Shown here one piece after another: positions 3,004 through 38,362 of a stretch of 64,000 bases of DNA. The stretch is from NCBI RefSeq assembly GCF_900116715.1, contig NZ_FPBM01000001.1, positions 126,784-190,783 on the forward strand. The letters run 5' to 3'. Below the pieces are notes generated by a model. It did no database searches, was not told the origin of the DNA, and saw only the letters and a list, made by a program, of their open reading frames with translations. A program made the position numbers and the translations under genes. Position 1 is the stretch's first letter; each line of letters begins with the position of its first letter. This DNA comes from Polaromonas sp. YR568 (lineage in GTDB: Bacteria; Pseudomonadota; Gammaproteobacteria; Burkholderiales; Burkholderiaceae_C).

Positions 3004-3030
3004 CAAAAAACTTTCGAGTCAGGCTTTGTT

Positions 3031-3414
3031 TCAGGCGTCGGGCATGCCGGAGCGGGGCGACAGGCTTTCGCCTGGCGGCAGCGCGCCCGGCTCGTCCAGC
3101 TCGATCGCGATCTGGGTGCAGACGCTGCGGCACAGCGCCACCGCTTTTTCGCTTTGCACGCGGTAAATCACCTGCGTGCCTTCTTTGCGCTTGGCCAGTA
3201 CGCCGGTGCGGTACAGCACGGCCAGATGCTGGGACAGGTTGGGCTGCGTGGTGTCGATTTCGGCCAGCAGCTCATTGACGGACTTTTCGCGCTCGCACAG
3301 GGCGCTCAGCACCCGCAGGCGCATGGGCGTGGCCAGCACGGCGAACAACTCGGCCGCCAGCTCAAACACCCGGCCTCTTTCGGCCTGCGCACTGGCGTGA
3401 ATCATCTGGTCCAT
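3031..3414 (-). CDS. soxR: ArsR-family regulator of the sox operon (SoxR/SqrR/BigR type)
   Basis: 127-residue winged-helix protein with the ArsR recognition helix around QPNLSQHLAVLYRTGVL (57-73). It has cysteines at 40 (SALCERE) and at 95 and 99 (LCRSVCTQ). In the SqrR/BigR/YgaV branch a cysteine near 40 and one near 100 form di- or polysulfide links on exposure to reactive sulfur and release DNA; the positions here fit that scheme, but the pairing is inference. It is the first gene of the soxCDY operon and has a near-palindromic operator (3429-3450) only 15 bases before its start, so autoregulation is likely. Confidence 0.82.
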   Translation of the reverse strand: MDQMIHASAQAERGRVFELAAELFAVLATPMRLRVLSALCEREKSVNELLAEIDTTQPNLSQHLAVLYRTGVLAKRKEGTQVIYRVQSEKAVALCRSVCTQIAIELDEPGALPPGESLSPRSGMPDA

Positions 3415-16073: not shown

Positions 16074-17984
16074 CTAGCCAGCCACCCGATCCCGAATCTG
16101 CTGCAGCGCCGCCGGGTCGTCCATCGTCGTCAGATCGCCCGGATCCCTGCCCTCGCACACGGCCTGGATCGCGCGGCGCAGCATCTTGCCGCTGCGGGTC
16201 TTGGGCAGGGCTGACACGAAGTGCACACGTGAGGGCCGGGCAACCGCGCCGAGGTCGGTGTCGACGCGTTTCATGATCTCGCCTTCGAGCTTGAGGGCTG
16301 CCGCGCTGTCGGCCAGCACCGTGGCGTCTTTGGGCACGGCAAAGGCCATGGCGACCTGGCCTTTGAGTTGGTCGGCCACGCCCACCACTGCGACTTCAGC
16401 CACCAGCGCGTGGCCTGAAATGCTCTCTTCAATCTCGCGTGTGCCCAGGCGGTGGCCGGCGACGTTGATGACGTCGTCAGTGCGGCCCAGGATGAAAAAA
16501 TAACCGTCTTCGTCGCGTATGCCCCAGTCAAAGGTGCTGTAGACCATCTTGCCGGGCACGCTCTTCCAGTAAGTGTTGACGAAGCGGGCGTCGTCCTTCC
16601 AGATGGTTTGCATAAAACCCGGCGGCGTCGGGCCTTCGATGACGACTACGCCTTTTTCATTGGGCTGTGTCAGCTCTTCACCGGTGGACTCATGCAGGAT
16701 CTTGACCTTGTAGCCATACATGGGCACACCCGGGCTGCCGAAGCGGCTGGCTTTCTTTTCAACCGCATTGGCGATGGTGATGATGGGCCAGCCCGATTCG
16801 GTCTGCCAGTAGTTGTCGATGATGGGCACGTTCAGGCCTTCGCTGATCCAGCGCGCTGTCGGTTCGTCCAGGGGTTCGCCGGCCAGGAAGAAGGCGCGCA
16901 GGCTGGAGAGGTCGTGTTTTTTCAGCAGGGCCGGGTCCTGTTTTTTCAGCACGCGCACTGCCGTGGGCGCGCTGAACATCGCGGTCACCTTGTACTTCTC
17001 GACCAGGCTCCACCAAATCGCGCCGTTGGGCTGCTGGTCCATGCCCTGTGTGGGCAGGCCCTCATACATGATGGTTGCCATGCCGGCAATCAGCGGGCCG
17101 TAGACGATGTAGCTGTGGCCCACCACCCAGCCGATGTCGCTGGTCGAAAAATAGGTCTCCCCCGCGCGGCCGTCAAAGATATGTTTCATGCTGGCGGCCA
17201 GCGCCACGGCATAACCGCCGGTGTCGCGCTGCACGCCTTTGGGCTTGCCGGTGGTGCCGCTGGTGTAGATGGTGTAGCTGATGGCGGCGGAGTCCAGCCA
17301 TTCACATTGCACCTGGGCGTGCATGTATTTGGCGCGCAGGTTCTCCCAATGCAGGTCTCGGCCGGCCACAAAATTCATGGGCGCCAGGCCGCGGTCGACC
17401 AGCAGAACCGCCTCGGGCTGATGTTTGGCCTGGCGGATCGCTTCGTCGAGCAAAGGCTTGTACGCCACCACCTTGCCGCCGCGCGAGCCGGCATCGGCGC
17501 TGATGATCACGCGCGGCGCGGCGTCGTCGATGCGCGAAGCCAGCGCGCCGCTGGCAAAGCCGCCAAACACCACGCAGTGGATGGCGCCTATGCGCGCACA
17601 GGCCAGCATGGCAAAAGCGGCCTCGGCGATCATGGGCATGTAGATGAGCACGCGGTCGCCCTTGACCACGCCCATGGCCAGCAGGCTGGCGGCCATGCGC
17701 TGCACCTCAACGTGCAGCTCTTTGAAGGTGTAGGTTTTTTCAATACCGGTTTCGCTGGAGACATAAATCAGCGCCGCCTGGTCGGCCCGGTCTTTGAGAT
17801 GCCGGTCTACCGCGTTGTGGCAGAGGTTGGTCTGCCCGCCTTCGTACCACTGGGCAAAGGGCGGCTTGTCGTCGTTGCAGACACGGGTGAAGGGCTTGTG
17901 CCAGTCGATCAGCTTGGCCTGCTCTGTCCAGAAGGCATCGGGCTGCTCTATGGACTGGCGGTAGAAGTCTGCGTAGCTCGTCAT
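16074..17984 (-). CDS. prpE: Propionate--CoA ligase PrpE
   Basis: 636 residues, normal for PrpE and close to acetyl-CoA synthetase. Begins with the ACAS N-terminal segment YADFYRQSIEQPDAFW. AMP-binding motifs: YTSGTTGKPKGVQRDTGG (about 237-254), and DNYWQTESGWPI; C-terminal RSGKMLRR carries the lysine that is acetylation-controlled in this family. It activates propionate, and often acrylate or 3-hydroxypropionate, to the CoA thioester with ATP. No prpBCD genes adjoin; instead a MDR reductase of the AcuI family follows upstream on the same strand with a 35-base gap, pointing to a combined acrylate/3-hydroxypropionate-to-propionyl-CoA role. Confidence 0.9.
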   Translation of the reverse strand: MTSYADFYRQSIEQPDAFWTEQAKLIDWHKPFTRVCNDDKPPFAQWYEGGQTNLCHNAVDRHLKDRADQAALIYVSSETGIEKTYTFKELHVEVQRMAASLLAMGVVKGDRVLIYMPMIAEAAFAMLACARIGAIHCVVFGGFASGALASRIDDAAPRVIISADAGSRGGKVVAYKPLLDEAIRQAKHQPEAVLLVDRGLAPMNFVAGRDLHWENLRAKYMHAQVQCEWLDSAAISYTIYTSGTTGKPKGVQRDTGGYAVALAASMKHIFDGRAGETYFSTSDIGWVVGHSYIVYGPLIAGMATIMYEGLPTQGMDQQPNGAIWWSLVEKYKVTAMFSAPTAVRVLKKQDPALLKKHDLSSLRAFFLAGEPLDEPTARWISEGLNVPIIDNYWQTESGWPIITIANAVEKKASRFGSPGVPMYGYKVKILHESTGEELTQPNEKGVVVIEGPTPPGFMQTIWKDDARFVNTYWKSVPGKMVYSTFDWGIRDEDGYFFILGRTDDVINVAGHRLGTREIEESISGHALVAEVAVVGVADQLKGQVAMAFAVPKDATVLADSAAALKLEGEIMKRVDTDLGAVARPSRVHFVSALPKTRSGKMLRRAIQAVCEGRDPGDLTTMDDPAALQQIRDRVAG

Positions 17985-18019
17985 TGTCTTGTCTCCGTTT
18001 TATTGTCTTGAATCGATGT

Positions 18020-18997
18020 TCAGATTTTGACGACCACACGGCCGCGCACCTTGCCGGCCATCAGCTCGGCGGCTTTTTCCGCAGCGCGGGCCAAAGGCAC
18101 TTCTTCCACCATAGCTTCGAGTTTCGCAGTGTCCAGGTCTTTGGCCAGGCGCTCCCAGGCTTGCTGGCGTTTGGCCAGCGGCGCCATCACGCTGTCGATG
18201 CCCGCCAGCGTCACGCCGCGCAAGATAAAAGGCATCACCGTCGCCGGAAAGTCCGCGCCCTGCGCCAGCCCGCAGGCCGTGACCACGCCGCCGTAGCGTG
18301 TCTGCGCGCAGGCATTGGCCAGCGTGTGCGAGCCCACGGCGTCGACCACGGCTGCCCAGCGTTCTTTTTGCAGCGGCTTGCCGGGGGCCGAGAGCTCGGC
18401 ACGGTCAATCATGCTGCTCGCGCCCAGCTGCTTTAAGTAAGCCTCTTCACTGGCCTTGCCGGTGGCGGCCACCACGGTATAGCCCAGCTTGCCCAGCAGC
18501 GCGACGGCCACGCTGCCCACGCCGCCGGTCGCGCCCGTCACCAACACTTCACCGTCGCCGGGCCTGGCGCCATGCGCCTCCAGCGCCAGCACGCTCAGCA
18601 TGGCGGTGTAGCCCGCCGTGCCAATGGCCATGGCCTGGCGCGGCGTAAAAGCCGCCGGCAGCCTGACCAGCCAGTCGCCCTGCAGGCGGGCGCGCTCGGC
18701 CATCAGGCCCCAGCGTGTTTCGCCCAGGCCCCAGCCGTTGTGCACAAAGCGGTCGCCGGCCTTCCAGCCGGCGTGGGTCGATTCGATCACCGTGCCCGCG
18801 CCGTCAATGCCGGCCACCATGGGCCAGCTGCGCACCACCGGCCCCTTGTTGGTAATGGCCAGGCCGTCTTTGTAATTAAGGGTGGAGTAATCGACCTGCA
18901 CCAGCACGTCGCCGGCGGGCAGCTGGGCCTCGTCGGTGTCGGTGATGGCGGCCGAGAAACCGGCGTCGGACTTGCTCAGTTGAAGGGACTTGAACAC
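18020..18997 (-). CDS. acuI: AcuI/YhdH-type NADPH-dependent acrylyl-CoA reductase (MDR family)
   Basis: 325 residues from a GTG start with a GGAG site 8 bases upstream. Medium-chain reductase fold without the structural zinc lobe: GroES-like N-terminus (VQVDYSTLNYKDGLAITN, typical for YhdH/AcuI), and a nucleotide-binding GATGGVGSVAVALL near residues 150-165. AcuI reduces acryloyl-CoA to propionyl-CoA, removing a toxic electrophile during DMSP, acrylate or 3-hydroxypropionate metabolism. Its position directly before prpE on the same strand supports that use, though a generic quinone/enone reductase role is possible. Confidence 0.8.
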   Translation of the reverse strand: MFKSLQLSKSDAGFSAAITDTDEAQLPAGDVLVQVDYSTLNYKDGLAITNKGPVVRSWPMVAGIDGAGTVIESTHAGWKAGDRFVHNGWGLGETRWGLMAERARLQGDWLVRLPAAFTPRQAMAIGTAGYTAMLSVLALEAHGARPGDGEVLVTGATGGVGSVAVALLGKLGYTVVAATGKASEEAYLKQLGASSMIDRAELSAPGKPLQKERWAAVVDAVGSHTLANACAQTRYGGVVTACGLAQGADFPATVMPFILRGVTLAGIDSVMAPLAKRQQAWERLAKDLDTAKLEAMVEEVPLARAAEKAAELMAGKVRGRVVVKI

Positions 18998-27437: not shown

Positions 27438-27986
27438 TCAGGCGTGTTTTTTGACCCAGTCCACATAGGCGTCGACCCAGCCTTGCAAAAACTTGCGGCT
27501 CGCCTCGCCGATATTGCCGTCGGCGTCATACAGGCCTTCCTTGTTGTGGATGAAGGCCTCGGGCTGTCCCAGCGTGGGCGCATTCAGGTAAGCCAGGATA
27601 TTGCGCAGGTGCTGCTGCGACAGTGCCGTGCCGATGGGGCCGACGGACGCGCCGATCACGCCTGCCGGCTTGCCGTTCCAGGCGCTTTGGCCATAGGGGC
27701 GCGACGCATGGTCGATGGCGTTTTTCAGCACGCCGGGAATCGAGCGGTTGTATTCAGGCGTGGCAAACAGCAGGCCCTGCGCCGCGTTGATCTCGCCTTT
27801 AAGCCGGAGGACTGAAGCGGCCTGATTCGCGTCGTCGTCCTGGTTGTAGGGTGGCAGGTCGTCAATGCGCACATGGGTGAAGCTGAAATCCGCGGGGAAC
27901 AGCTTTTCAAGCGCCCTGGCGAGCTTTTTGTTGAACGAGTCCTTGCGGATGCTGCCGACGATGACGGCGATGTTGTATTGGGCCAT
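27438..27986 (-). CDS. NADPH-dependent FMN/quinone (chromate-type) reductase
   Basis: 182 residues of the NADPH-dependent FMN reductase family (ChrR/YieF/ArsH group). GSIRKDSFNKKLARAL near the N-terminus binds the FMN phosphate; FATPEYNRSIPGVLKNAIDHASRP is the family signature around residues 75-98. It reduces flavins, quinones or chromate in the cytoplasm. GGAGAA ribosome site 6 bases before the ATG. It lies downstream of nothing on this strand; the cysteine desulfurase gene ends 166 bases away on the same strand, and the gap has no clear feature. Confidence 0.85.
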   Translation of the reverse strand: MAQYNIAVIVGSIRKDSFNKKLARALEKLFPADFSFTHVRIDDLPPYNQDDDANQAASVLRLKGEINAAQGLLFATPEYNRSIPGVLKNAIDHASRPYGQSAWNGKPAGVIGASVGPIGTALSQQHLRNILAYLNAPTLGQPEAFIHNKEGLYDADGNIGEASRKFLQGWVDAYVDWVKKHA

Positions 27987-28152
27987 GGGGTTCTCCAGAA
28001 AAGATGGAAGGGGAAAAGGGGAAGAGAGGAAGTGAAGGGAAGAAAGGCGAAAGAAAAATGCCAGACCTCATATGTAAGGCATTTTCGAAAACCCTGCTGT
28101 AGGACGGCAAGCTAACCGACCTTTACACCCCATCTTCCCTGCTCTCTGCCCC

Positions 28153-30093
28153 TCACCCCGCGCGCCGCTGCCCCGCCAGCCGCTTGACGACCGCGACCAG
28201 CCGGTCTATCTCGTCAAAAGTGTTGTAGAAGGCCAGCGACGGCCGCACCGTGGTCTCGACCCCAAAGCGCCGCAGGATCGGTTGCGCGCAATGGTGGCCT
28301 GTGCGCACGGCAATGCCCTCTTCATTGAGCGCATGGCCGACTTCTTCGGTGCTGTAGCCCGCCAGCACAAACGACATCACGCTGGCCTTGTCGGCCGCGG
28401 TGCCGATCAGGCGTACACCCGGGATGGCGCCAAGCTGCTGCATGCCGTAGACCAGCAGATCGTGTTCATAACGTGCGATGTTTTCAATGCCGATGCGGTT
28501 CACATAGTCGATGGCAGCGCCCAGGCCCACCGCATCGGCGATGTTGCCGGTGCCGGCTTCGAACTTGTTGGGAATCGGCTGGAACACGGTTTTTTCAAAC
28601 GTGACATCGGCAATCATGTTGCCGCCGCCCTGCCAGGGCGGCATGTCTTCCAGCACCTCGCGCCTGCCCCAGACCACGCCGATGCCGGTGGGGCCAAAGA
28701 CCTTGTGGCCCGAGAAAACAAAGAAGTCCGCGCCCAGCGCCTGCACGTCCACCCGCATGTGCGAGACCGACTGCGCGCCGTCCACCAGCGCCTTGGCGCC
28801 GGCGCGGTGCGCCATCTCGACAATCTCTTTCACAGGCACCACGGTACCCAGCGCGTTGGAGACCTGCGTGACGGCCACGATCTTGGTGCGGTCGTTCAGC
28901 AGCTTGCGGTATTCGTCCAGCAGCACCTGGCCCGAATCGTCGACCGGGATCACGCGCAGCTTGGCGCCCTTGGCGGCGGCGAGCTGCTGCCACGGCACGA
29001 TGTTGGCGTGGTGCTCCAGGTTGCTGACGATGATCTCGTCGCCCTCGCCTACGTGCTGGCCGCCCCAGCTTTTGGCCACCAGGTTGATGGCCTCGGTGGT
29101 GCCGCGCACAAAGATCACTTCATTCACGTCAGGCGCGTTGATGAACTTCTTCACCCGCTCGCGAGCGCCTTCATAGGCGTCGGTGGCGCGCGCGGCCAGC
29201 TCATGCGCCGCGCGGTGGATGTTGGAGTTCTCGTGCTCGTAGAAATGCGAAATCCGGTCTATGACGGACTGCGGCTTGTGCGTGGTCGCGGCGTTGTCGA
29301 ACCACACCAGCTGCCGGCCATTGACGCGCTCCTGCAGGATGGGAAAGTCGCGGCGCACCGCATGCACATCAAACGCCGGATGCGCCGACTGGCCTGCCAG
29401 CGGCACGGTGGCGTGCGGCGCGGGTTTGGCGGGCGTGACGTAGCCCGTGGGCAGCACCACTGAATCAACGAAGTAGAACTTCGGCTCGGTGGGTGCGGCT
29501 TCTGGGGGCTGCGCCGCTTGCGCGGGCCCATAAACGGACGGCACGCCGGGCTGGCTGAAAGGCAAGCTCGCCAGGCCATCGAGGCCGGCATCGCGCCCGT
29601 CCGCGCTGGGCTGGCCATGCCGATCACCGAGGAAATAGTAGGGCGCGGCGCCCGTAGGCGGCTGCGCAGCCGCGGCAGCTTCTGGCACGCCCACTGCAGC
29701 GCCGCCAATGCGCGGCTCATACGCAGGCAACACGCTGACAGCCGTGTCGGGCACACCGTTGCCGGCCGCCGCATGCGGCAGCAAGGCCGGTGCCCGGTTG
29801 GCCAGCGAAGGCAGTTGCGCCGGTGATGCCGGAATCAGGTTGCTGCCGGGAATCTGCCCTTGCGGGATCGGCGTGCCCGGAACGCCTGGGCCAAAGCCCG
29901 CGGGGCTGGCCAGGGGCGAGCCCGGCGGCGCCAGGTGCAAAGGCCCCTGCACGCCCGGCACGGGCGATGCGGGCAGCGTGGGCGCCTCGCCCGGCAAGGC
30001 CGCAAACAAGGCGGTGGCCATGCGTGACAGCAATGCCGTATCGATAGGCGACTCAGGCTGCACGGCCTGGGGAGTGGAAGCGAGCATGTTCAC
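28153..30093 (-). CDS. Encapsulin-cargo cysteine desulfurase (SufS-type) with long disordered N-terminus
   Basis: 646 residues, about 240 more than free SufS. Residues 240-646 are a complete class-V aminotransferase fold: PLP lysine in FSGHKVFGPTG (Lys464), catalytic cysteine in RTGHHCAQP (Cys602). Residues 1-235 are Pro/Ala/Gly rich and predicted disordered, with short hydrophobic motifs (TPIPQGQIPGSNLIPAS, YYFLGDRHGQP, KFYFVDSVVLPTGYVTP). In characterised family 2A encapsulins such a domain targets the desulfurase into the shell. It follows the shell gene after 6 bases. The start is GTG at 30093 or ATG at 30087. It takes sulfur from cysteine, giving alanine and a persulfide, probably inside the compartment. 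Confidence 0.93.
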   Translation of the reverse strand: MNMLASTPQAVQPESPIDTALLSRMATALFAALPGEAPTLPASPVPGVQGPLHLAPPGSPLASPAGFGPGVPGTPIPQGQIPGSNLIPASPAQLPSLANRAPALLPHAAAGNGVPDTAVSVLPAYEPRIGGAAVGVPEAAAAAQPPTGAAPYYFLGDRHGQPSADGRDAGLDGLASLPFSQPGVPSVYGPAQAAQPPEAAPTEPKFYFVDSVVLPTGYVTPAKPAPHATVPLAGQSAHPAFDVHAVRRDFPILQERVNGRQLVWFDNAATTHKPQSVIDRISHFYEHENSNIHRAAHELAARATDAYEGARERVKKFINAPDVNEVIFVRGTTEAINLVAKSWGGQHVGEGDEIIVSNLEHHANIVPWQQLAAAKGAKLRVIPVDDSGQVLLDEYRKLLNDRTKIVAVTQVSNALGTVVPVKEIVEMAHRAGAKALVDGAQSVSHMRVDVQALGADFFVFSGHKVFGPTGIGVVWGRREVLEDMPPWQGGGNMIADVTFEKTVFQPIPNKFEAGTGNIADAVGLGAAIDYVNRIGIENIARYEHDLLVYGMQQLGAIPGVRLIGTAADKASVMSFVLAGYSTEEVGHALNEEGIAVRTGHHCAQPILRRFGVETTVRPSLAFYNTFDEIDRLVAVVKRLAGQRRAG

Positions 30094-30099
30094 CGCGCT

Positions 30100-31032
30100 T
30101 TATTTATAGGTATCGGGGTAGTCGTGGTATTTGCCGATCTCGACGTCGTCTAGCACCGCCAGCGCATCGGTGGTCAGCACCGCGAGCGAGCAATACAGCG
30201 AGATCAGGTAAGACGAGATCGCATGGTTGTTGATGCCCATGAAGCGCACCGACAGGCCCGGGCTTTGTTCGCCGGGTAGGCCCGGCTGGAACAAACCGAC
30301 CACGCCCTGGCGCTTGTCGCCCACACGCAGCAGCAAAATCTTGCTCTTGCCGTCAGCCACCGGTACCTTGTTCGAAGGGATCAGCGGAATGCCGCGCCAG
30401 GTGATGAACTGCGAGCCGAAGAGGCTGACCGTGGGCGGCGGCGTGCCGCGGCGCGTGGCTTCACGGCCAAAGGCGGCAATGGCCAGCGGGTGCGTGAGGA
30501 AGAAGGCGGGTTCCTTCCAGACCTTGGTCAGCAGCTCGTCCAGGTCGTCGGGCGTGGGCGCGCCGGTCAGCGGGAAGATGCGCTGCTCGTCCGTGACTTG
30601 CGCCAGCAGGCCGTAGTCCGGGTTGTTGATGAGCTCGCTTTCCTGGTTTTCCTTGATGGTCTCTATCGTCAGGCGCAGTTGTTCCTTGATCTGGTCGTGC
30701 GGGCTGCTGTAGAGGTCGGAGATGCGGGTGTGCACGTCCAGCACGGTGCTGACGGCGTTGAGGAAAAATTCGCGCGGCGCTTCCTCGTAGTCGACAAAGG
30801 TGCGCGGCAGCTGGTTTTCTTCTTCGCGTGCGGTGCATTTGACCTTGATCGACTCCGGGTTCTTGACCTTGTTGAGGCGGTAGATACCGGCCTCGACAGG
30901 CACCCATTGCAGCAGGTGGGTCAGCCAGCGCGGCGAGATGGTCTCGAGTTGCGCTGTGGTTTTGGTTGCATTGGCTAGTTGCCGCGCGGCGTTATCGCCG
31001 AGTGCGGTGGTTCCGCCCACTGTTGCCGACAT
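30100..31032 (-). CDS. Family 2A encapsulin shell protein (SrpI-like)
   Basis: 310 residues with the family 2A encapsulin (SrpI, formerly 'major membrane protein I') sequence pattern: RWLTHLLQWVPVEAGIYRLNKVKNPES, the extended-arm region, then FFLTHPLAIAAFGREATRRGTPPPTV and the C-terminal MGINNHAISSYLISLYCSLAVLTTDALAVLDDVEIGKYHDYP. The length matches SrpI homologues. These HK97-fold proteins assemble into ~25-nm icosahedral shells. There is no cNMP-binding insertion, which distinguishes it from family 2B. GGGAG ribosome site. Immediately downstream is the cargo desulfurase; upstream are XRE, EpsC and rhodanese genes, all on the same strand. Confidence 0.94.
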   Translation of the reverse strand: MSATVGGTTALGDNAARQLANATKTTAQLETISPRWLTHLLQWVPVEAGIYRLNKVKNPESIKVKCTAREEENQLPRTFVDYEEAPREFFLNAVSTVLDVHTRISDLYSSPHDQIKEQLRLTIETIKENQESELINNPDYGLLAQVTDEQRIFPLTGAPTPDDLDELLTKVWKEPAFFLTHPLAIAAFGREATRRGTPPPTVSLFGSQFITWRGIPLIPSNKVPVADGKSKILLLRVGDKRQGVVGLFQPGLPGEQSPGLSVRFMGINNHAISSYLISLYCSLAVLTTDALAVLDDVEIGKYHDYPDTYK

Positions 31033-31112
31033 AGAAAAACTCCCTCGTTGGAAAAAACAAAGCTACAAAGAAAAATCAATGGGCTGCAGTGTCGTGGGCC
31101 AGTGGGCAGGCT

Positions 31113-31382
31113 TCAACATGCTATAGCCATCAAGTTGATGCCGCGCACCAGATTGGCCTGGCTGATGGCCTCACCGCGCGTGACCAGCGACGAGGGCGAC
31201 ATGCCCAGCGCCACCGCGAGTTTTTCGACCGTGACCAGCGAAGCAATCGCCCTGCCCCGCTCGATCTCGCCCACATAGGAGCGGTTGAGGTCCGAGCGTT
31301 CGGCCAGCCCTTCCTGCGACCAGCCCTGAGCCTCGCGCGACTGGCGCACCGCGATGCCGAAGCTTTCAACCAGCGCCGTCAT
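31113..31382 (-). CDS. XRE-family regulator within the encapsulin operon
   Basis: 89 residues, essentially one HTH_3 domain: FGIAVRQSREAQGWSQEGLAERSDLNRSYVGEIERGRAIASLVTVEKLAVALGMSPSSL. Its ATG overlaps the epsC stop as ATGA (31379-31382), so it is translationally coupled. The 80-bp gap between it and the encapsulin gene may contain its binding site and an internal promoter. Small SinR/CysB-unrelated HTH proteins of this type occur in several sulfur-related loci; its ligand, if any, is unknown. Confidence 0.85.
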   Translation of the reverse strand: MTALVESFGIAVRQSREAQGWSQEGLAERSDLNRSYVGEIERGRAIASLVTVEKLAVALGMSPSSLVTRGEAISQANLVRGINLMAIAC

Positions 31383-32320
31383 ATCAGTGCGCTCCCGAGT
31401 GTTTGCGCTGCGGCCTCCACACCGGCCGAGTCGCGCGAGACGGCCTGCGTGACATTGCCGCCTGCCGGCACGTCATAAGTGATCCACACATTGCCGCCTA
31501 TCACCGCCCCCTTGCCCAAGGTGACCCGGCCCAGGATGGTGGCACCAGCGTAGATCACCACGTCGTCTTCCACAATGGGGTGGCGCGGCAGGCCTTTTTG
31601 CAGCTTGCCCTCCAGGTCTTTCGGAAAACGTTTGGCGCCTAGCGTGACGGCCTGGTAGAGGCGCACACGCTGGCCGATCACGGCGGTCTCGCCGATCACA
31701 ACGCCCGTGCCGTGGTCGATAAAAAAGCCGGGGCCGATCTGGGCACCCGGATGAATGTCTATGCCGGTCTGTGAATGCGACAGCTCGGCCGCAATGCGCG
31801 CCAGCAGCGGCAGGCCCAGCTTATAGAGCTGGTGCGCCAGGCGGTGGTGGATCATTGCCAGCACGCCCGGGTAGCACAGCAGCACTTCGTCAACGCTGCG
31901 GGCGGCGGGGTCGCCGTTGTAGGCGGCCAGCACATCGCTGTCCAGCAACTGGCGGATGCCGGGCAAGGCGCCGGCAAAGCTGCGCGCGGCCAGCAGCGCT
32001 TCTGTTTCGATATCGGCATCGCCCCGGCCCTGGTGGCGCGCGCTGTAGGTCAGCTCCAGCCGCACCTGCGCAAGCAGCCCGTGCAGGGCCGAGTCCAGCG
32101 TATGGCCAACGTAAAAGTCTTCACTCTCCTGGCGCAAGTCAGGCGGGCCCAGCCGCATCGGAAAGAGTGCGCCCTTGAGCGCTTCGATCACCTGGGCCAG
32201 CGCGTCACGCGAAGGAAACTCGCGCCCACCCGGCTCACGTGAACGCTTTTGCGATTCACGCCACTGGCACCGCACCGCATGCAGGTCGCCCACAATCTGG
32301 TTGACATCAAACACCGCCAT
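31379..32320 (-). CDS. epsC: Serine O-acetyltransferase, EpsC/CysE type
   Basis: 313 residues. C-terminal left-handed beta-helix with hexapeptide repeats: HPGAQIGPGFFIDHGTGVVIGETAVIGQRVRLYQAVTLGA and later HPIVEDDVVIYAGATILGRVTLGKGAVIGGNVWI. The HGTGVVIGETA motif is diagnostic of serine acetyltransferase. The N-terminus is the longer EpsC type. It makes O-acetylserine, the carbon acceptor for sulfide in cysteine synthesis. In family 2A encapsulin loci this gene is a recurrent partner, supplying cysteine for the compartment's desulfurase. Starts 11 bases after the rhodanese gene. Confidence 0.93.
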   Translation of the reverse strand: MAVFDVNQIVGDLHAVRCQWRESQKRSREPGGREFPSRDALAQVIEALKGALFPMRLGPPDLRQESEDFYVGHTLDSALHGLLAQVRLELTYSARHQGRGDADIETEALLAARSFAGALPGIRQLLDSDVLAAYNGDPAARSVDEVLLCYPGVLAMIHHRLAHQLYKLGLPLLARIAAELSHSQTGIDIHPGAQIGPGFFIDHGTGVVIGETAVIGQRVRLYQAVTLGAKRFPKDLEGKLQKGLPRHPIVEDDVVIYAGATILGRVTLGKGAVIGGNVWITYDVPAGGNVTQAVSRDSAGVEAAAQTLGSALI

Positions 32321-32331
32321 GGCAACCTCCC

Positions 32332-32802
32332 TCAGTCCTGTTCCCAGGGCAGGCCCCGGAAGCGCCAGCCGTCGGCCACACCGCGATGCTGCTGCGCATC
32401 GATCTCGCCTTCAAAGCCTTCGAGCACGTTGTAGACCTGCGTGAAACCGGCCTTGGCTGCCGCCTCTGCCGCCAGCGCCGAGCGCTTGCCGCTGCGGCAC
32501 AGCAAAAGCACCACGGCCTCCTTGCCGCCCACCTTGGCTTCAAGCTCACGCACAAAGCGCGGGTTGCGCGTCAGCGCCGTGCCGGTGGCCCAGGCCACAT
32601 GAAGGCTGCCGGGCACATGGCCGACAAACTTGCGCTCTTCACCCGAGCGCACGTCGACCAGCAAGGCCTCGCCCGACGAAAAAAGCTGCCATGCGAGTTG
32701 TGGCGGCACACCGCCGGCATAGGGCAAGCCAGCTTGCTGCGCGGCTTCGCGCGCCTCTTCCAGCGCCTGAGGCAAAACCAGTTCGGATGTTTCAGAAGGC
32801 AT
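32332..32802 (-). CDS. Single-domain rhodanese (sulfurtransferase)
   Basis: 156 residues: rhodanese domain with active-site loop CRSGKRS (Cys about 102) preceded by VVLLL and an upstream SGEALLVDVRSGEER segment. The loop length fits a sulfane-sulfur (not phosphatase) enzyme. First gene of the operon rhodanese-epsC-xre-encapsulin-desulfurase; it probably passes sulfane sulfur to or from the desulfurase persulfide. Rhodanese is a known neighbour of family 2A encapsulins. Confidence 0.9.
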   Translation of the reverse strand: MPSETSELVLPQALEEAREAAQQAGLPYAGGVPPQLAWQLFSSGEALLVDVRSGEERKFVGHVPGSLHVAWATGTALTRNPRFVRELEAKVGGKEAVVLLLCRSGKRSALAAEAAAKAGFTQVYNVLEGFEGEIDAQQHRGVADGWRFRGLPWEQD

Positions 32803-33019
32803 CGTCGTTCCCTGAGCAGTCGTTCAAAGTTGTTTCCATACAGCCCGGATCAGCCGCCATTTCGATGGGGATGGGCAGCAGCCGGGGCCCATGAAACGGA
32901 CTCTAGGTGGCGCGATTCAAAACGCCAAAGAATAAAAACGAGCTTCTTAAAACCGAAATCATCTTTAAGACCGAGGTGCGCCAAAGCGCGCAGGCACTGT
33001 CAGTCGATCAGCAGGCAAC

Positions 33020-33040
33020 TGCATCGAATGCAGCAGCCGG
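33020..33040 (+). promoter_or_regulatory. Upstream activator box for a sigma-54 enhancer-binding protein (site 1)
   Basis: TGC-N5-ATGCAGCAGCCGG, overlapping the inverted repeats CTGCAT-CGA-ATGCAG (33019-33033) and AGCAG-CCGGG-CTGCT (33032-33046). The same string occurs before the haloperoxidase-like gene. The gap to the sigma-54 promoter is 44 bases. Confidence 0.6.
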
Positions 33041-33084
33041 GCTGCTTAAACCCGCGAAATCCCCCGAAATAGGCCCTGAATCAC

Positions 33085-33100
33085 TGGCATGGATGCTGCG
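33085..33100 (+). promoter_or_regulatory. Sigma-54 promoter of the sulfonate-type transport operon
   Basis: TGGCATGGATGCTGCG matches the -24/-12 consensus TGGCACG-N4-TTGCA, with GG and GC in exact spacing. The start codon at 33135 is 35 bases beyond it. An alternative in-frame ATG at 33093 lies inside the -12 element, which argues for the later start. Confidence 0.7.
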
Positions 33101-33134
33101 TTGTCGAGCGCGTCAACCACTCTCTCTTCATGCC

Positions 33135-34154
33135 ATGACCATCACTCGCTTCCTCGGCCTTGCCGCTTTGTCTCTCGGTTTGTTTGCCACGCAGGGCCAT
33201 GCCGCCCCACCGCTTGAGAAAACCGAAATCCGCTACCAGGGCTGGGCCGGCCAGGTCACCTGGATAGAGCTGGCCGAGGAGCTGGGCTACCTCGCACCGC
33301 TCAAGGCCAAGTGGGTGGGCAACACCATCAGCGGCCCGCAAGACATCCAGAGCGTGGTCACTGGCGACGTTGACCTGGGCGGCGCCTTCAACGGCGCGGT
33401 CGTCAAGCTGCTGGCCAAGAAGGCGCCGATCAAGGCCGTGCTGGGTTACTACGGCGTAGACGAGAACACTTACAGCGGCTACTACGTCAAAGACGACAGC
33501 CCCATCAAATCGGCGCGCGACCTGCTCGGCAAAAAGGTCGCGGTGAACACGCTGGGCGCCCACCATGAGTTCATGGTCCGTGAATACCTGGACCGCGCCA
33601 AGCTGAGCGACGCCGAGGCCAAGCAGGTGACCCTGGTGGTCACGCCGCCCGTCACCGGCGAGCAGGCGCTGCGCCAGGGCCATGTGGAGGTCACCACGCT
33701 GGGCGGCGTGCTGCGCGACAAGGCGCTGGAGCGCGGCGGTATACACCCGCTGTTTACCGACCGCGCTCTGTACGGCAACTTCACCGCGGGAACCATCGTC
33801 CTGCACAACAAATTCATCGAGCAAAACCCCAACACCAGCCGCCACCTGGTGTCGGCGCTGGCACGCTCCATCGAGTGGGCCCGCAACACACCGGCCGCCG
33901 AGGTGCGTGCGCGCTTTGTCAAAGTCATTGAAGCCCGCAAGCGCGCCGAAAGTGCCGACACCATCCAGTACTGGAAAAGCACCGGCGTGGCGGGAACCGG
34001 CGGCGTGATCAAAGACAGCGAACTGCAGATCTGGATCAACTGGCTGGTCAAGGACGGCCTGCTCAAGCCCGGCCAGGTCAAGCCCGCAGACCTCTACACC
34101 AACGCCTTCAACCCCTACTTCAACAACGCCGAAAAACTGGCGGCCGCCAAATGA
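33135..34154 (+). CDS. Sulfonate/sulfur-compound ABC transporter, periplasmic binding protein (SsuA/TauA-like)
   Basis: 339 residues from the ATG at 33135, giving signal peptide MTITRFLGLAALSLGLFATQGHA. The mature protein follows the NMT1/SsuA fold: EKTEIRYQGWAGQVTWIELAEELGYL, then GPQDIQSVVTGDVDLGGAFNGAVVKLLAKKAPIKAV. It delivers a sulfonate, sulfone or aryl sulfur compound to the membrane complex encoded next. It overlaps the ATPase gene by ATGA. The monooxygenase downstream suggests the ligand is cleaved oxidatively for sulfite. The exact ligand is unknown. Confidence 0.88.
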   Translation: MTITRFLGLAALSLGLFATQGHAAPPLEKTEIRYQGWAGQVTWIELAEELGYLAPLKAKWVGNTISGPQDIQSVVTGDVDLGGAFNGAVVKLLAKKAPIKAVLGYYGVDENTYSGYYVKDDSPIKSARDLLGKKVAVNTLGAHHEFMVREYLDRAKLSDAEAKQVTLVVTPPVTGEQALRQGHVEVTTLGGVLRDKALERGGIHPLFTDRALYGNFTAGTIVLHNKFIEQNPNTSRHLVSALARSIEWARNTPAAEVRARFVKVIEARKRAESADTIQYWKSTGVAGTGGVIKDSELQIWINWLVKDGLLKPGQVKPADLYTNAFNPYFNNAEKLAAAK

Positions 34155-35005
34155 GCACCGCCAAGATCCGTTTTGAAAACGTCAGCAAGGAGTTCACCGT
34201 GCGCGCGGACGACGGCGGCGCCGCAAAGCGCTTTGTCGCGGTGCATGACGTCACGCTGGAGGTGAAGCCGGGCGAATTCCTGGTGCTGGTCGGGCCCAGC
34301 GGCTGCGGCAAGTCGACGCTGCTCGATTTGCTGGCCGGCCTGGCGCTGCCCACCAGCGGCCGCGTGCTGATCGACGGCAAACCCGTGACAGGCCCGGCGC
34401 GTGACCGCGGCGTGGTGTTCCAGCAATACGCCCTCTTCCCCTGGCTGAGCGCACTCGACAACGTGGCCTTCGGCCTGGAAGTTGCAGGCGTGGGCAAGCG
34501 TGCCCGGCGTGAGAAGGCCGCGCACTACCTGGCGCTGGTGGGCCTGACCGACTTTGCCAACCGCTTTCCGCATGAGCTCTCGGGCGGCATGAAGCAGCGC
34601 GTGGCCATTGCGCGCAGCCTGGCTTACGAGCCCGAGGTGCTGCTGATGGACGAGCCTTTCGCCGCACTTGACGCACAGACGCGTGAAACGTTGCAGGAAG
34701 AGCTGGTCGAGATCTGGCAACGCACCGGCAAGACGATTGTGTTTATCACCCACGGCATCGACGAAGCCGTGGTGCTGGGCCAGCGCGTGGCGATCATGAC
34801 CACGCGGCCCGGCCGCATCAAGCAGATCGTGGACATCCCCGAATCCCTGCGGGCCGACACCGACGACGTGCGCTCGCTGCCGCTCTTTGGCGAGCTGCGC
34901 CACGAGATCTGGTCGCTGCTGCATGACGAAGTCGCCTCGGCCCGCCAGGAGCGCCGTGCGCGCATTGCCTCACAACCCGAAAAGAAAGAACACGCCCATG
35001 TCTGA
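34151..35005 (+). CDS. Sulfonate-type ABC transporter ATPase (SsuB/TauB-like)
   Basis: 284 residues. Walker A GPSGCGKST (about 50-58), Q-loop FQQYALFPW, signature LSGGMKQR, Walker B LLMDEPFAALD, H-loop FITHG. The subfamily pattern (SPYxxxPW-like Q-loop and the YEPEVLLMDEPF segment) is nitrate/sulfonate/taurine type. ATG overlaps the previous stop, and its end overlaps the permease start by 8 bases, so all three transporter genes are translationally coupled. Confidence 0.92.
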   Translation: MSTAKIRFENVSKEFTVRADDGGAAKRFVAVHDVTLEVKPGEFLVLVGPSGCGKSTLLDLLAGLALPTSGRVLIDGKPVTGPARDRGVVFQQYALFPWLSALDNVAFGLEVAGVGKRARREKAAHYLALVGLTDFANRFPHELSGGMKQRVAIARSLAYEPEVLLMDEPFAALDAQTRETLQEELVEIWQRTGKTIVFITHGIDEAVVLGQRVAIMTTRPGRIKQIVDIPESLRADTDDVRSLPLFGELRHEIWSLLHDEVASARQERRARIASQPEKKEHAHV

Positions 35006-35852
35006 GATTGCCCTGAACGCGGGAACACATGCCACCGCCCAGCAAGCACTGCTGCTGAAAACGCCACCGGTCTGGCTGCGGCTTTACCACCAGTTGGCCA
35101 ACGCCACCTGGCGCTCCGGCCTGATCGTCGCGCTGGCCTTGCTGTGGGAGCTGGCGCCGCGGCTCGGCCTGACCGACCCGACCTTCCTGCCGCCGCTGAG
35201 CGAAGTACTGGCCGCCGGCTGGACGCTGGCGTTGAACGGCCAGCTCTGGGAACACACTTCCATCAGCCTGGCGCGCTCGCTGGGCGGCTTGCTTCTGGCC
35301 ATTGTGCTGGCCATTCCGCTGGGCCTGGCCATAGGCTGGTACCAGCGCCTGGGCAATGCGCTGAATCCGCTGATCGAGCTGCTGCGCAACACCGCACCGC
35401 TGGCCCTGCTGCCGGTATTCCTCTTGCTGCTGGGTATTGGCGAGGTGTCCAAGGTCTCCATCGTGGTCTACGCCTGCGCCTGGCCGCTCTTGCTCAACAC
35501 CATCTCGGCGGTGCGGCAGGTTGACCCGCTGCTGGTGAAATCGGCGCGCACCATGGGTGCGACATCTCGCCAGCTGTTCCTCAAAGTGATACTGCCGGCG
35601 TCTGTACCGACCATCTTTGTGGGCATACGACTGGCGGCTGCCTCCGCCATGCTGGTGCTGATCGCCGCCGAGATGGTGGGCGCCAAGGCCGGGCTGGGCT
35701 ACCTGATCATTTACGCCCAGTTCAGCTTCCTGATTGCCGACATGTACTTCGGGATCATCGCCATCACCGCCATAGGCGTAGCAGTGAACTTTGCGCTGCA
35801 GAAGCTGGAGAGCCACTTCACCGCATGGAAGCCGGCGCCTGCCCGCCACTAA
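34998..35852 (+). CDS. Sulfonate-type ABC transporter permease (SsuC/TauC-like)
   Basis: 284 residues from the ATG at 34998. About six transmembrane helices (first about 38-55). The EAA-loop is visible as VDPLLVKSARTMGATSRQLFLKVILPASVPTIFVGIRLA, the coupling segment to the ATPase. It is in the inner membrane. The LLM monooxygenase gene follows after 48 bases. Confidence 0.92.
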   Translation: MSEIALNAGTHATAQQALLLKTPPVWLRLYHQLANATWRSGLIVALALLWELAPRLGLTDPTFLPPLSEVLAAGWTLALNGQLWEHTSISLARSLGGLLLAIVLAIPLGLAIGWYQRLGNALNPLIELLRNTAPLALLPVFLLLLGIGEVSKVSIVVYACAWPLLLNTISAVRQVDPLLVKSARTMGATSRQLFLKVILPASVPTIFVGIRLAAASAMLVLIAAEMVGAKAGLGYLIIYAQFSFLIADMYFGIIAITAIGVAVNFALQKLESHFTAWKPAPARH

Positions 35853-35900
35853 ACACCTGATTGACTGACATACAGACTGACAGAAACAGAAAGACATCTC

Positions 35901-37253
35901 ATGACACAACGCAAACTGCGCCTGGGCGCTTTCATCATGGCCACCGGCCATCACATCGCCGCCTGGCGGCATCCCGGCTCACAAGTGGATTCGGGCGTCA
36001 ACATCGACCACTACATCGAGGTGGCCCAGATCGCCGAGCGCGGCCTCTTTGACCAGGTCTTTGTGGCCGACAGCCCAGGCATGGCTTTTCACGGCGACGA
36101 CGAAGCCTTCAGCCGCCAGGGCCGGGTGTCTTACTTTGAACCGGTGACTTTGTGGGCTGCGCTCTCGGCCGTGACCAAACACGTCGGCTTTGTGGCAACA
36201 GCATCGACCACCTATGAAGACCCCTTCCTGCTGGCGCGCAAGTTCTCCTCGCTCGACCACCTGAGCAAGGGCCGCGCCGCCTGGAACGTAGTGACCACGG
36301 GCGCTGACAACGTGTACGGCAACTTTGGCCTGGACAAGCACCCCGAGCCCGCCGTGCGCTATGAGCAGGCCCATGAATTCATCGATGTGGTCAAGGGCCT
36401 GTGGGACAGCTTTGAAGACGACGCCTTCTTCCGCGACCCGGCATCAGGCAAATACTTCGACCCGGCCAAGGTGCATGCGATCAACCACTCGGGCAAGTAC
36501 TTCAAGGTCAGCGGCCCGCTGAACCTGGAGCGCCCGCCGCAGGGCTACCCGGTGATCGTGCAGGCAGGTTCGTCCGAGCCCGGCCGTGAGCTGGCCGCGG
36601 CGTCGGCCGAAGCCATTTTCACCGCCTGGACCAGCCTGGCCGAGGCGCAGGCTTTCTACCGCGATGTGAAGGGGCGGCTGGCCAAATACGGCCGCCGGCC
36701 CGAGCAATTGCTGGTGCTGCCCGGCATCTCCCCAGTGGTCGGCCGCACGCAGGCAGAAGCCGACGCCAAGTGGGCCGAGCTGCAAAAGCTGATCCACCCC
36801 TCCGTGGGCCTGAACACGCTGCACACCTTCTGGCCCGGTGAAGATTTGTCGAAGTGGGACCTGGACGCGCCGCCGCCCTACATCCCCGAGCCGCCGCCCG
36901 GGCAAAACAGCCGCGCCCATGTGGTGCTGGAGCTGGCCCGGCGCGACAAGCTCACCGTGCGCCAGCTCTATGAATACCTGGCCGGCGCGCGCGGCCACTG
37001 GGTGGTGGTGGGCACGCCGCAAACCATTGCCGACAAGATGCAGGAGTGGTTTGAAAACGGCGCGGCCGACGGCTTTAACGTGATGCCGCCGGTGCTGCCT
37101 GAGTCGCTCAATGATTTTGTCGAGCTGGTGATTCCAGAGTTGCAGCGGCGCGGCCTCTTTCGCACCGAATACGAAGGCAGCACCCTGCGCGAAAACCTGG
37201 GCCTGGACCGGCCGGCCAACCAGTTCACCGTCAAGGCGCAAAAGGTCGCCTGA
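35901..37253 (+). CDS. FMNH2-dependent monooxygenase, NtaA/SnaA/DszA (bacterial-luciferase) family
   Basis: 450 residues, the size of NtaA/DszA enzymes rather than the shorter SsuD. Features: LGAFIMATGHHIAAWRHP at the start, DHLSKGRAAWNVVTTG (the NtaA-type flavin region, about 118-133), GYPVIVQAGSSEPGRELAA, and GTPQTIADKMQEWFENGAADGFNV. Such enzymes oxidise sulfones, nitrilotriacetate or related compounds with FMNH2 from a separate reductase. Placed last in a sulfonate-type transporter operon, it probably desulfurises the imported substrate. No flavin reductase is in the operon; the FMN reductases at 26152 and 27438 are possible suppliers. A strong terminator follows. Confidence 0.87.
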   Translation: MTQRKLRLGAFIMATGHHIAAWRHPGSQVDSGVNIDHYIEVAQIAERGLFDQVFVADSPGMAFHGDDEAFSRQGRVSYFEPVTLWAALSAVTKHVGFVATASTTYEDPFLLARKFSSLDHLSKGRAAWNVVTTGADNVYGNFGLDKHPEPAVRYEQAHEFIDVVKGLWDSFEDDAFFRDPASGKYFDPAKVHAINHSGKYFKVSGPLNLERPPQGYPVIVQAGSSEPGRELAAASAEAIFTAWTSLAEAQAFYRDVKGRLAKYGRRPEQLLVLPGISPVVGRTQAEADAKWAELQKLIHPSVGLNTLHTFWPGEDLSKWDLDAPPPYIPEPPPGQNSRAHVVLELARRDKLTVRQLYEYLAGARGHWVVVGTPQTIADKMQEWFENGAADGFNVMPPVLPESLNDFVELVIPELQRRGLFRTEYEGSTLRENLGLDRPANQFTVKAQKVA

Positions 37254-37301
37254 TGCCCGTTTAAACCAATTGCTCCGTGTCCCAGTGGGTGGGATTTTCA
37301 G

Positions 37302-37334
37302 GGCCTGCGGTTTCACGCCGCAGGCCTTTTTTTT
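37302..37334 (+). terminator. Rho-independent terminator of the sulfonate operon
   Basis: Perfect 9-bp stem GGCCTGCGG/CCGCAGGCC with loop TTTCACG followed by eight T residues (37327-37334). It separates this operon from the convergent tauD-like gene. Confidence 0.93.
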
Positions 37335-37345
37335 CGCACGTGCTT

Positions 37346-38299
37346 TTAAGCAGCGACAGGCACCGGCGCTGCCGGGCTCTTGCCGGCGCCATCAGGCTGC
37401 ACAGCCTTTCCATGCAACACTGAGCGCCGGCCATCGACGCTGACAGGCACATCGCCCGCCAACGTCACGCGGCGCACCACGCGGTGCTGGTCGCCGTAGT
37501 CGTTGATGGCGTAATGCTGCGTGGCGCGGTTGTCCCAGATCACCACGTCGCCCTGTGTCCAGCGCCAGCGCACGGTGTTCTCCAGGCGGATGATGTGCTC
37601 CTGCAGCACCGACAGCAGGTGTTGCGAGTCGGTGCTGGAGTAACCCACCAGCTTCTTGACGAAATGGCCCAGCACCAGCGCGCGCTCACGGGTTTCAGGG
37701 TGCACGCGCACCACCGGGTGCTCGGCTTCATGCAGGGTGCGGGTGAAGACCTCGCGGTAGTGCTTCGCACCTTCGTCAGAGATATCTTTCTCCGGGCGAT
37801 GCGCGGCGTAGTCGTAATCGTTGCCGTGCACGGCCCAAAGCTTGTCGGCCAGCTCGCGCAGCGCCGGCGGCAGGCCCTGGTAGGCAGCGGCCGTATTGGC
37901 CCAGACCGTGTCGCCGCCCCAGGGCGGGATCACCACGCCGCGCAGCACAGAGATCTTGGGCGGCGCCACCGCAAAGGTTACGTCGGTATGCCAGGAGTTG
38001 GCGCGGCCGCCGTGGGCCGAGTCCAGCTCCAGGATATAACCCGTGCCCTGGCGCGAGGGCACCGTCGGGTGCGGCACCGGATCGCCCAGCCGCTGCGCGA
38101 ACGCCTCTTGCGCCGCATCGTCCAGATGCTGCTGGCCGCGCAGAAAAAGCACCTTGTGTTTGAGCAACGCCTGGTTGAGCGCGACCACGGTGTCGCCGGA
38201 GATTTCGGCCGACAAGCGCAGGCCGCGCACTTCAGCGCCAATGCGGCCGGCGACCGGCGTGATGTCAAGAACAGGAGGGGATGAATGAACTTGGGTCAT
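37346..38299 (-). CDS. TauD/TfdA-family alpha-ketoglutarate dioxygenase
   Basis: 317 residues from the ATG at 38299. Fe(II) triad: WHTDVTF (His and Asp about 103-105) and RATQHYAINDYG (His about 258), with the 2-oxoglutarate-binding Arg in HRVVRRVTL. The N-terminus ITPVAGRIGAEVRGL is the TauD/sulfatase pattern. It probably hydroxylates a sulfonate or alkyl sulfate so that sulfite or sulfate is released. Located between the sulfonate operon and the haloperoxidase-like gene, transcribed with the latter (63-base gap). Whether the substrate is taurine itself is unknown. Confidence 0.88.
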   Translation of the reverse strand: MTQVHSSPPVLDITPVAGRIGAEVRGLRLSAEISGDTVVALNQALLKHKVLFLRGQQHLDDAAQEAFAQRLGDPVPHPTVPSRQGTGYILELDSAHGGRANSWHTDVTFAVAPPKISVLRGVVIPPWGGDTVWANTAAAYQGLPPALRELADKLWAVHGNDYDYAAHRPEKDISDEGAKHYREVFTRTLHEAEHPVVRVHPETRERALVLGHFVKKLVGYSSTDSQHLLSVLQEHIIRLENTVRWRWTQGDVVIWDNRATQHYAINDYGDQHRVVRRVTLAGDVPVSVDGRRSVLHGKAVQPDGAGKSPAAPVPVAA

Positions 38300-38362
38300 G
38301 GGGTGCCTTTCGTTGGGGGAAATAAGAGGAAGTGGCAAGAGGACGTGACGCAGGCCGCGTGT

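Follow-up and report, generated by a model that had tools for sequence, protein, structure and literature searches.

We report that a five-gene operon in Polaromonas sp. YR568 encodes a family 2A encapsulin shell with its cysteine desulfurase cargo, and that it is probably governed by its own small XRE-family helix-turn-helix (HTH) regulator, which is predicted to act at two related operators, O1 and O2, and so to control two gene units separately. The analysed DNA, referred to as the window, comprises 64,000 nt of contig NZ_FPBM01000001.1 (positions 126,784 to 190,783), and the operon occupies positions 28153-32802 of it. As described in the initial annotation of this DNA, it consists of five open reading frames (ORFs), all on the minus strand, in the order rhodanese, serine O-acetyltransferase (SAT), XRE, shell and desulfurase, with intergenic gaps in that order of 11, -4, 80 and 6 bases. 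Operators and promoters were predicted from conservation, and all of the regulatory evidence is computational. The features, in window coordinates, are as follows.

28153..30093, minus strand: family 2A encapsulin cargo cysteine desulfurase (SufS-like, 646 amino acids, GTG start; NF041166, residues, AlphaFold)
30100..31032, minus strand: family 2A encapsulin shell (SrpI-like, 310 amino acids; NF041162, PF19307, 8t6r, SrpI identity)
31088..31116, minus strand: predicted internal promoter for shell and desulfurase (conserved -35/-10 spacing)
31113..31133, minus strand: O2, predicted XRE operator TTGATGGCTATAGCATGTTGA (21-base pattern, conservation)
31113..31382, minus strand: small XRE-family HTH regulator (89 amino acids; PF01381/PF13560, AlphaFold)
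31379..32320, minus strand: SAT, EpsC-like, 313 amino acids (NF041874)
32332..32802, minus strand: single-domain rhodanese, 156 amino acids (PF00581, Cys102)
32862..32881, minus strand: O1, predicted XRE operator, weak copy CTGCTGCCCATCCCCATCGA (symmetric matrix, 12.8 bits leave-one-out)
32900..32928, minus strand: predicted main promoter before rhodanese (-35/-10 search upstream of O1)

The shell scored 525.6 bits against the family 2A model NF041162 (cut-off 380, E = 2.8e-158), and the desulfurase scored 947.4 bits against NF041166, named 'family 2A encapsulin nanocompartment cargo protein cysteine desulfurase' (cut-off 800, E = 5.3e-285), E-values that place the assignment far beyond chance. 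The hidden Markov model search proposed in the initial annotation thus found the shell to match family 2A models, and the reading of the operon as a family 2A desulfurase-encapsulin system held for both proteins. The shell narrowly exceeded the family 2B model as well (409.1 bits, cut-off 400), the best stretch of that match covering model positions 212-449 of 450; because the 2A score lies far over its cut-off and the 2B score just over, we assigned the protein to 2A by margin. PF19307 (SrpI-like) is the sole Pfam domain in the shell, with no cNMP-binding domain, the trait that separates 2A from 2B. Its best relative in the Protein Data Bank is 8t6r (E = 5.8e-167), its identity to Synechococcus elongatus SrpI is 71.6%, and an HK97 fold is implied by the solved relatives 8t6r and 6x8m. 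Two irregular shells were seen in other genomes. In G003 the shell is split over overlapping matches (L029 and L030, 1338647-1339120 and 1339087-1339575), which suggests a frameshift or sequencing error, while XRE, SAT and an O2-like string are retained, and in G039 (L013) one in-frame TAG lies within the shell match.

The desulfurase adjoins the shell, and its pyridoxal phosphate lysine, Lys464 (SGHK), and catalytic cysteine, Cys602 (GHHC), reported earlier as intact, are both in place and invariant across 34 aligned desulfurases. The SufS-like domain begins after residue 240, and the N-terminus holds LLSRMATALFAAL and AAPYYFLGD, degenerate forms of published targeting motifs. A disordered N-terminus, on which the earlier reading had been made to depend, is predicted by AlphaFold for residues 41-201 (predicted local distance difference test, pLDDT, below 50), with a helix at 19-31; the model, computed from an alignment of the window protein with 33 of 73 full-length relatives, is modest (mean pLDDT 61.3), and parts of the catalytic domain also fall below 50, e.g. 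489-514. Within the Pro/Ala/Gly-rich, predicted disordered region, the stretch encoded at window 29680-29949 (residues 49-138) contains many invariant residues over the 34 sequences. This conserved stretch goes beyond the two published motifs and may bind the shell or another partner.

The accessory enzymes were assigned in the same way. SAT exceeded the cut-off of NF041874 EpsC (163.4 bits, cut-off 150) and stayed under that of the cysE equivalog TIGR01172 (169.2 versus 210.65); since a separate cysE match elsewhere in the genome, at 238.3 bits, exceeds that cut-off, the operon SAT is an extra copy. The rhodanese matched PF00581 with 54.2 bits and carries Cys102 in CRSGKRS. The genome has further class-V aminotransferase-fold proteins, likely including the housekeeping desulfurases. 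In the proposed scheme, the desulfurase would be drawn into the shell by its disordered N-terminus and would convert cysteine to alanine inside, leaving sulfane sulfur, while SAT would boost O-acetylserine for cysteine supply and the rhodanese would move persulfide sulfur. These steps have been shown for relatives or proposed in print, and we infer them here from family membership. Passages of PMC8346489 name SAT and rhodanese as the accessories with the strongest enrichment in family 2A desulfurase operons and already propose the roles given to both in the initial annotation, so that this part of the reading is not new.

The regulator matches PF01381/PF13560 in Pfam. Its AlphaFold model (mean pLDDT 95.5, from an alignment of 43 of 61 XRE proteins) contains an HTH domain and one long C-terminal helix only, so that the signal may be the level of XRE and not a ligand bound to it. 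Across 44 XRE sequences 18 columns are invariant, mostly in the HTH region. The nearest solved structures by sequence and fold include C.AhdI, C.BclI and ClgR; for C.AhdI the sequence match has E = 4.5e-11 and the fold match (chain B) E = 6.3e-05 with a TM-score of 0.71 by query length. The best NCBIfam match is the antitoxin model TIGR03070, below cut-off. No restriction enzyme or methyltransferase was found in the operon or among the matches listed for 54 distinct window ORFs.

The association of XRE with the shell was examined in 80 loci, the best among at least 590 relatives and thus biased to close ones, with some contigs ending inside the operon. The full five-gene order was present in 64 of them and XRE in 69, from genera such as Polaromonas, Variovorax, Duganella, Herbaspirillum and Paraburkholderia. 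Among 150 genomes of the same family (the shell and XRE draws being taken as one sample on the basis of their listed handles), 28 had a shell homologue, and an XRE homologue (E up to 1e-15) occurred in 17 of these 28 compared with 0 of 122 shell-less genomes. All 17 XRE places adjoin the shell, and a weaker XRE homologue lies beside the shell in G078 (L022). The same-genus genome G099 showed neither shell nor XRE match, so that the occurrence of the operon is uneven already at the level of the genus. Of 398 genomes sampled across the phylum, 17 had a shell match, which in four was partial and family 2B-like; L116 repeats L023 and L119 repeats L004 in this sample. More distant 2A loci mostly lack XRE (present in 5 of 12, L113-L124, all same family or order). 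This was the survey of genomic context that the initial annotation had suggested, and its bare statement that the XRE protein regulates the operon now has comparative data behind it, together with probable operator sites.

O2 was noticed during alignment of the XRE gene, where the DNA at the gene end, TTGATGGCTATAGCATGTTGA, proved to be retained after the XRE stop in loci where the frame ends earlier. It is a variant of the O1 motif that overlaps the last XRE codons and the stop, upstream of the shell. Scored with a 21-base pattern drawn from the same loci (at most 4 mismatches), O2 was found in 87 of 87 XRE-bearing loci and in 1 of 26 XRE-less loci (L103), or in 80 of 80 and 1 of 26 after thinning of close relatives, compared with 3 of 3853 control windows from the same loci; as O2 usually shares bases with the XRE gene, part of the contrast with XRE-less loci follows automatically, and the source loci are related, so that the counts are not independent events. 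The tally left out our own locus (L001 and L002), a fragment (L031), L030 from the genome of L029, and the family 2B-like loci or fragments L125-L132, and 7 exact duplicates were merged.

Support that is not automatic comes from the sites outside the reading frame, from codon usage, and from the same motif standing before the rhodanese without XRE codons. In 14 of 69 loci, most or all of O2 falls beyond the XRE frame (10 stop at the fourth base of the site and 4 have it wholly after the stop). All 52 loci that read the site in frame use ATA for its isoleucine, as against 123 of 5118 isoleucine codons (2.4%) in other operon genes. Together, the out-of-frame copies and this rare codon point to conservation of O2 as DNA. 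O1 and O2 share a motif even though the matrix was trained on O1 regions alone. A role of the C-terminal cysteine of XRE as a persulfide sensor was considered and set aside, since the terminal position is variable (Cys 42, Gly 6, Arg 2, Ser 2 in the 52 in-frame loci) and the constraint on the DNA accounts for it.

The right arm of O2 overlaps a conserved TTGANN, the -35 of a predicted internal promoter. A -10 that has A as its second and T as its sixth base stands 17 bp (72 loci) or 18 bp (14 loci) further on, in 86 of 87 loci altogether, while the same rule holds at 9 of 81 other TTGA sites. The exception is L022, identified in a scan from which L007, L030, L116 and L119 had been dropped as duplicates. 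The centre of O2 is fixed near -42.5 of this promoter. In the window the promoter is read as -35 TTGAAG (31116-31111), a 17-bp spacer and -10 GACACT (31093-31088). The internal -10 is weak in most loci and near consensus in L111 and L122 (GATAAT) and in L110 (CATAAT).

O1 is a palindrome before the rhodanese, TTGATGGCTATAGCCATCAA, related to the O2 string. Its symmetric matrix, trained on rhodanese-upstream regions only, carries 18.1 bits. In leave-one-out scoring, which is mildly circular because the full matrix made the first site pick, 54 of 68 XRE-bearing upstream regions (window included) reached 12 bits, compared with 2 of 10 XRE-less ones (L037 at 27.3 and L100 at 12.2). The main promoter was read as -35 TTGGCG (32928-32923), 17 bp, and -10 TAGAGT (32905-32900). 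Of 58 O1 sites scored, 56 of them in XRE-bearing loci, 29 have their centre at +2.5 or +3.5 of the predicted start and the remaining centres range from -0.5 to +33.5; as promoters were searched for only upstream of the site, a position downstream of the -10 is partly built in, whereas the sharp mode is not. Rfam gave no RNA element at gathering scores in 28000-33300.

Taken as a circuit, XRE would bind the two related predicted operators. Binding at O1, close to where the main promoter is predicted to start transcription, should repress rhodanese, SAT and XRE itself (autorepression). At O2, a site shared with the XRE stop and the -35, XRE would either activate or occlude the internal promoter, which would drive shell and desulfurase alone. 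The accessory enzymes would then be controlled apart from the nanocompartment. We put activation and repression at O2 at roughly even odds: its fixed position near -42.5, unlike that of O1, favours activation of shell and desulfurase, while a repressor whose site includes part of the -35 would give a similar picture.

How XRE would act on this circuit can be read in two ways. XRE could be a plain repressor at both sites, blocking the main promoter at O1 and occluding the internal -35 at O2 so that the locus is silenced as a whole. Repression is common among XRE proteins, O2 does overlap the -35 and O1 does lie near the predicted start, and we regard this as somewhat less than an even chance. 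What speaks against it is position, since O2 stays at one place (17-18 bp, about -42.5) and O1 is spread between about 0 and +34; fixed spacing before a weak promoter is more typical of activators, an argument that is not decisive because the double duty of the bases would also explain it. Class II activators act from about position -42.5, as lambda cI does at PRM, where an operator near -42 of a weak promoter activates and a second site represses. XRE may likewise have both effects, in the manner of C proteins or lambda cI, switching the main promoter off from O1 and turning on the weak shell-desulfurase promoter from O2, a reading that we hold tentatively and at less than an even chance. Unlike the case of lambda cI, to which no homology was seen beyond the HTH class, the two promoters here are about 1.8 kb apart. 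If the dual-regulator reading is true, the accessory cysteine supply would be expressed in antiphase to cage building, and O2 would serve three functions at once, as the end of the XRE coding sequence, as operator and as -35.

Two further readings do without the circuit. The XRE gene might be a passenger in an ordinary co-transcribed 2A unit, e.g. a relic antitoxin or restriction-modification controller, as its closest solved relatives C.AhdI and C.BclI and its sub-cut-off TIGR03070 match would allow; its place beside the shell in all 17 genomes, its 18 invariant columns and the conserved operators make this very improbable. Alternatively, there might be neither internal promoter nor operator, the string before the shell being only the conserved C-terminus of XRE. 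The string does encode AI-x-x-stop in frame in 52 of 69 XRE-bearing loci. We find this reading hardly credible given the loci that hold the DNA out of frame, the invariable use of ATA beside a variable last residue, and the same motif before the rhodanese, far from the XRE gene.

Besides the limits on the counts given above, several observations weigh against the predicted circuit itself. The window copy of O1 is weak, with 12.8 bits, a centre at about +22.5, and a score equalled by 2% of 101 control windows in the locus. At O1, fourteen of the 68 XRE-bearing loci do not reach 12 bits; among those re-scanned, L110 and L111 showed a site 3 mismatches off the O2 pattern, and ten others showed no O2-like site within 5 mismatches, none being closer than 6. 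L037 retains its strong O1 with no XRE in the locus, and its genome has no clear XRE orthologue (best match 53.2 bits, in a 343-amino-acid frame); L103 has O2, at 5922, with no XRE found in the locus. The window -10, GACACT, matches TATAAT poorly, and a strict consensus scan gave no sigma-70 promoter in 27980-33300, neither main nor internal. Finally, the genome of the strain contains no second O2-like site at up to 3 mismatches. A genome-wide regulon was for this reason rejected, no site close to the perfect palindrome being found either, although sites as degenerate as the window O1 would escape both searches.

The initial annotation had placed a sox operon in the same 64 kb and had seen in the window an unusual concentration of sulfur functions. 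The first claim stands for soxC (579.1 bits) and for a cytochrome in the soxD position (matches below cut-off), both at the left edge of the window, and fails for the rest, as soxY runs off that edge and soxZ, soxA, soxX and soxB lie outside, to the left. This region, window 477-3414, also holds an ArsR-family regulator (BigR match below cut-off). On the other side of the operon, 32907-38338 carries sulfonate/taurine-type ATP-binding cassette (ABC) genes, a flavin mononucleotide (FMN) monooxygenase and a TauD-like protein. The substrate-binding protein, transporter genes and FMN monooxygenase occur as a unit only in the near-identical Polaromonas locus L032 among the 80 loci, 63 of which span at least 12 kb. 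Single homologues were seen near more of the 80 loci (ATPase 21, permease 7, FMN monooxygenase 11, TauD 8). A conserved partnership of the operon with the sulfonate genes was rejected, as the substrate-binding protein stands beside the operon only in L032. The concentration of sulfur functions is thus partly real, and weak, with the neighbouring unit confined to L032 and most sox genes outside the window. A TauD-like dioxygenase, 69-71% identical to that of window 37346-38338, is found at about 3.1-4.0 kb of the Variovorax loci L040, L049, L053 and L067, just upstream of the rhodanese. Elsewhere in the window, at 16074-18997, a propionate-CoA ligase (PrpE) and an acrylyl-CoA reductase (AcuI) lie side by side, both over NCBIfam cut-offs, a pair that possibly belongs to an acrylate or dimethylsulfoniopropionate-related pathway.

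Shell, cargo, SAT and rhodanese form an established set, and the core of the operon is a known, ordinary system, given the published SrpI work and the curated NCBI models for shell and cargo. Passages of PMC8049743 report SrpI with its desulfurase cargo, a disordered targeting N-terminus containing LARLANEFFS and AASPYYFLDG, induction by sulfate starvation, and an S. elongatus knockout without growth phenotype. As in that system, the desulfurase here adjoins the shell and has a disordered N-terminus with recognisable versions of the two motifs. Unlike the operon described here, S. elongatus SrpI is plasmid-borne and induced by sulfate starvation, and rhodanese is not mentioned in the main text of PMC8049743, while here SAT, rhodanese and XRE belong to the operon. 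The operon also resembles the family 2A desulfurase operons of PMC8346489 (1281 operons), which have shell, desulfurase, SAT and rhodanese; according to its passages, family 2A encapsulins span 12 bacterial phyla. Those main-text passages contain no XRE gene, operators or internal promoter.

For the regulator, the closest parallels are the controllers of restriction-modification systems, such as C.AhdI and C.PvuII, which are likewise small XRE proteins acting on their own operon, C.AhdI and C.BclI being among the closest structures. In contrast to them, the XRE described here does not stand beside restriction-modification genes and would control a nanocompartment operon, and its predicted operator differs in sequence from the restriction-modification C-box. 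C.PvuII, a small protein, activates from one site and represses its own operon from another, as passages of PMC3695507 report, and the proposed dual logic therefore has precedent in related proteins.

In the literature searched on encapsulins with regulators and on desulfurase operons, a search that did not cover supplements, the XRE circuit was not described. What the analysis adds, and what could interest the specialist, is a regulator that is conserved and specific to the operon, its two predicted operators, and a distinct predicted promoter for shell and cargo. To our knowledge, the trigger of family 2A encapsulins outside cyanobacteria is unclear, and a dedicated regulator with defined operators would give a direct handle on when the compartment is made. 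Since XRE-bearing loci occur in several genera, the circuit can be tested in several strains. The signal that sets XRE, together with the two gene units, would reveal when the cell calls for a supply of cysteine, for transfer of sulfur or for a compartment filled with cargo.

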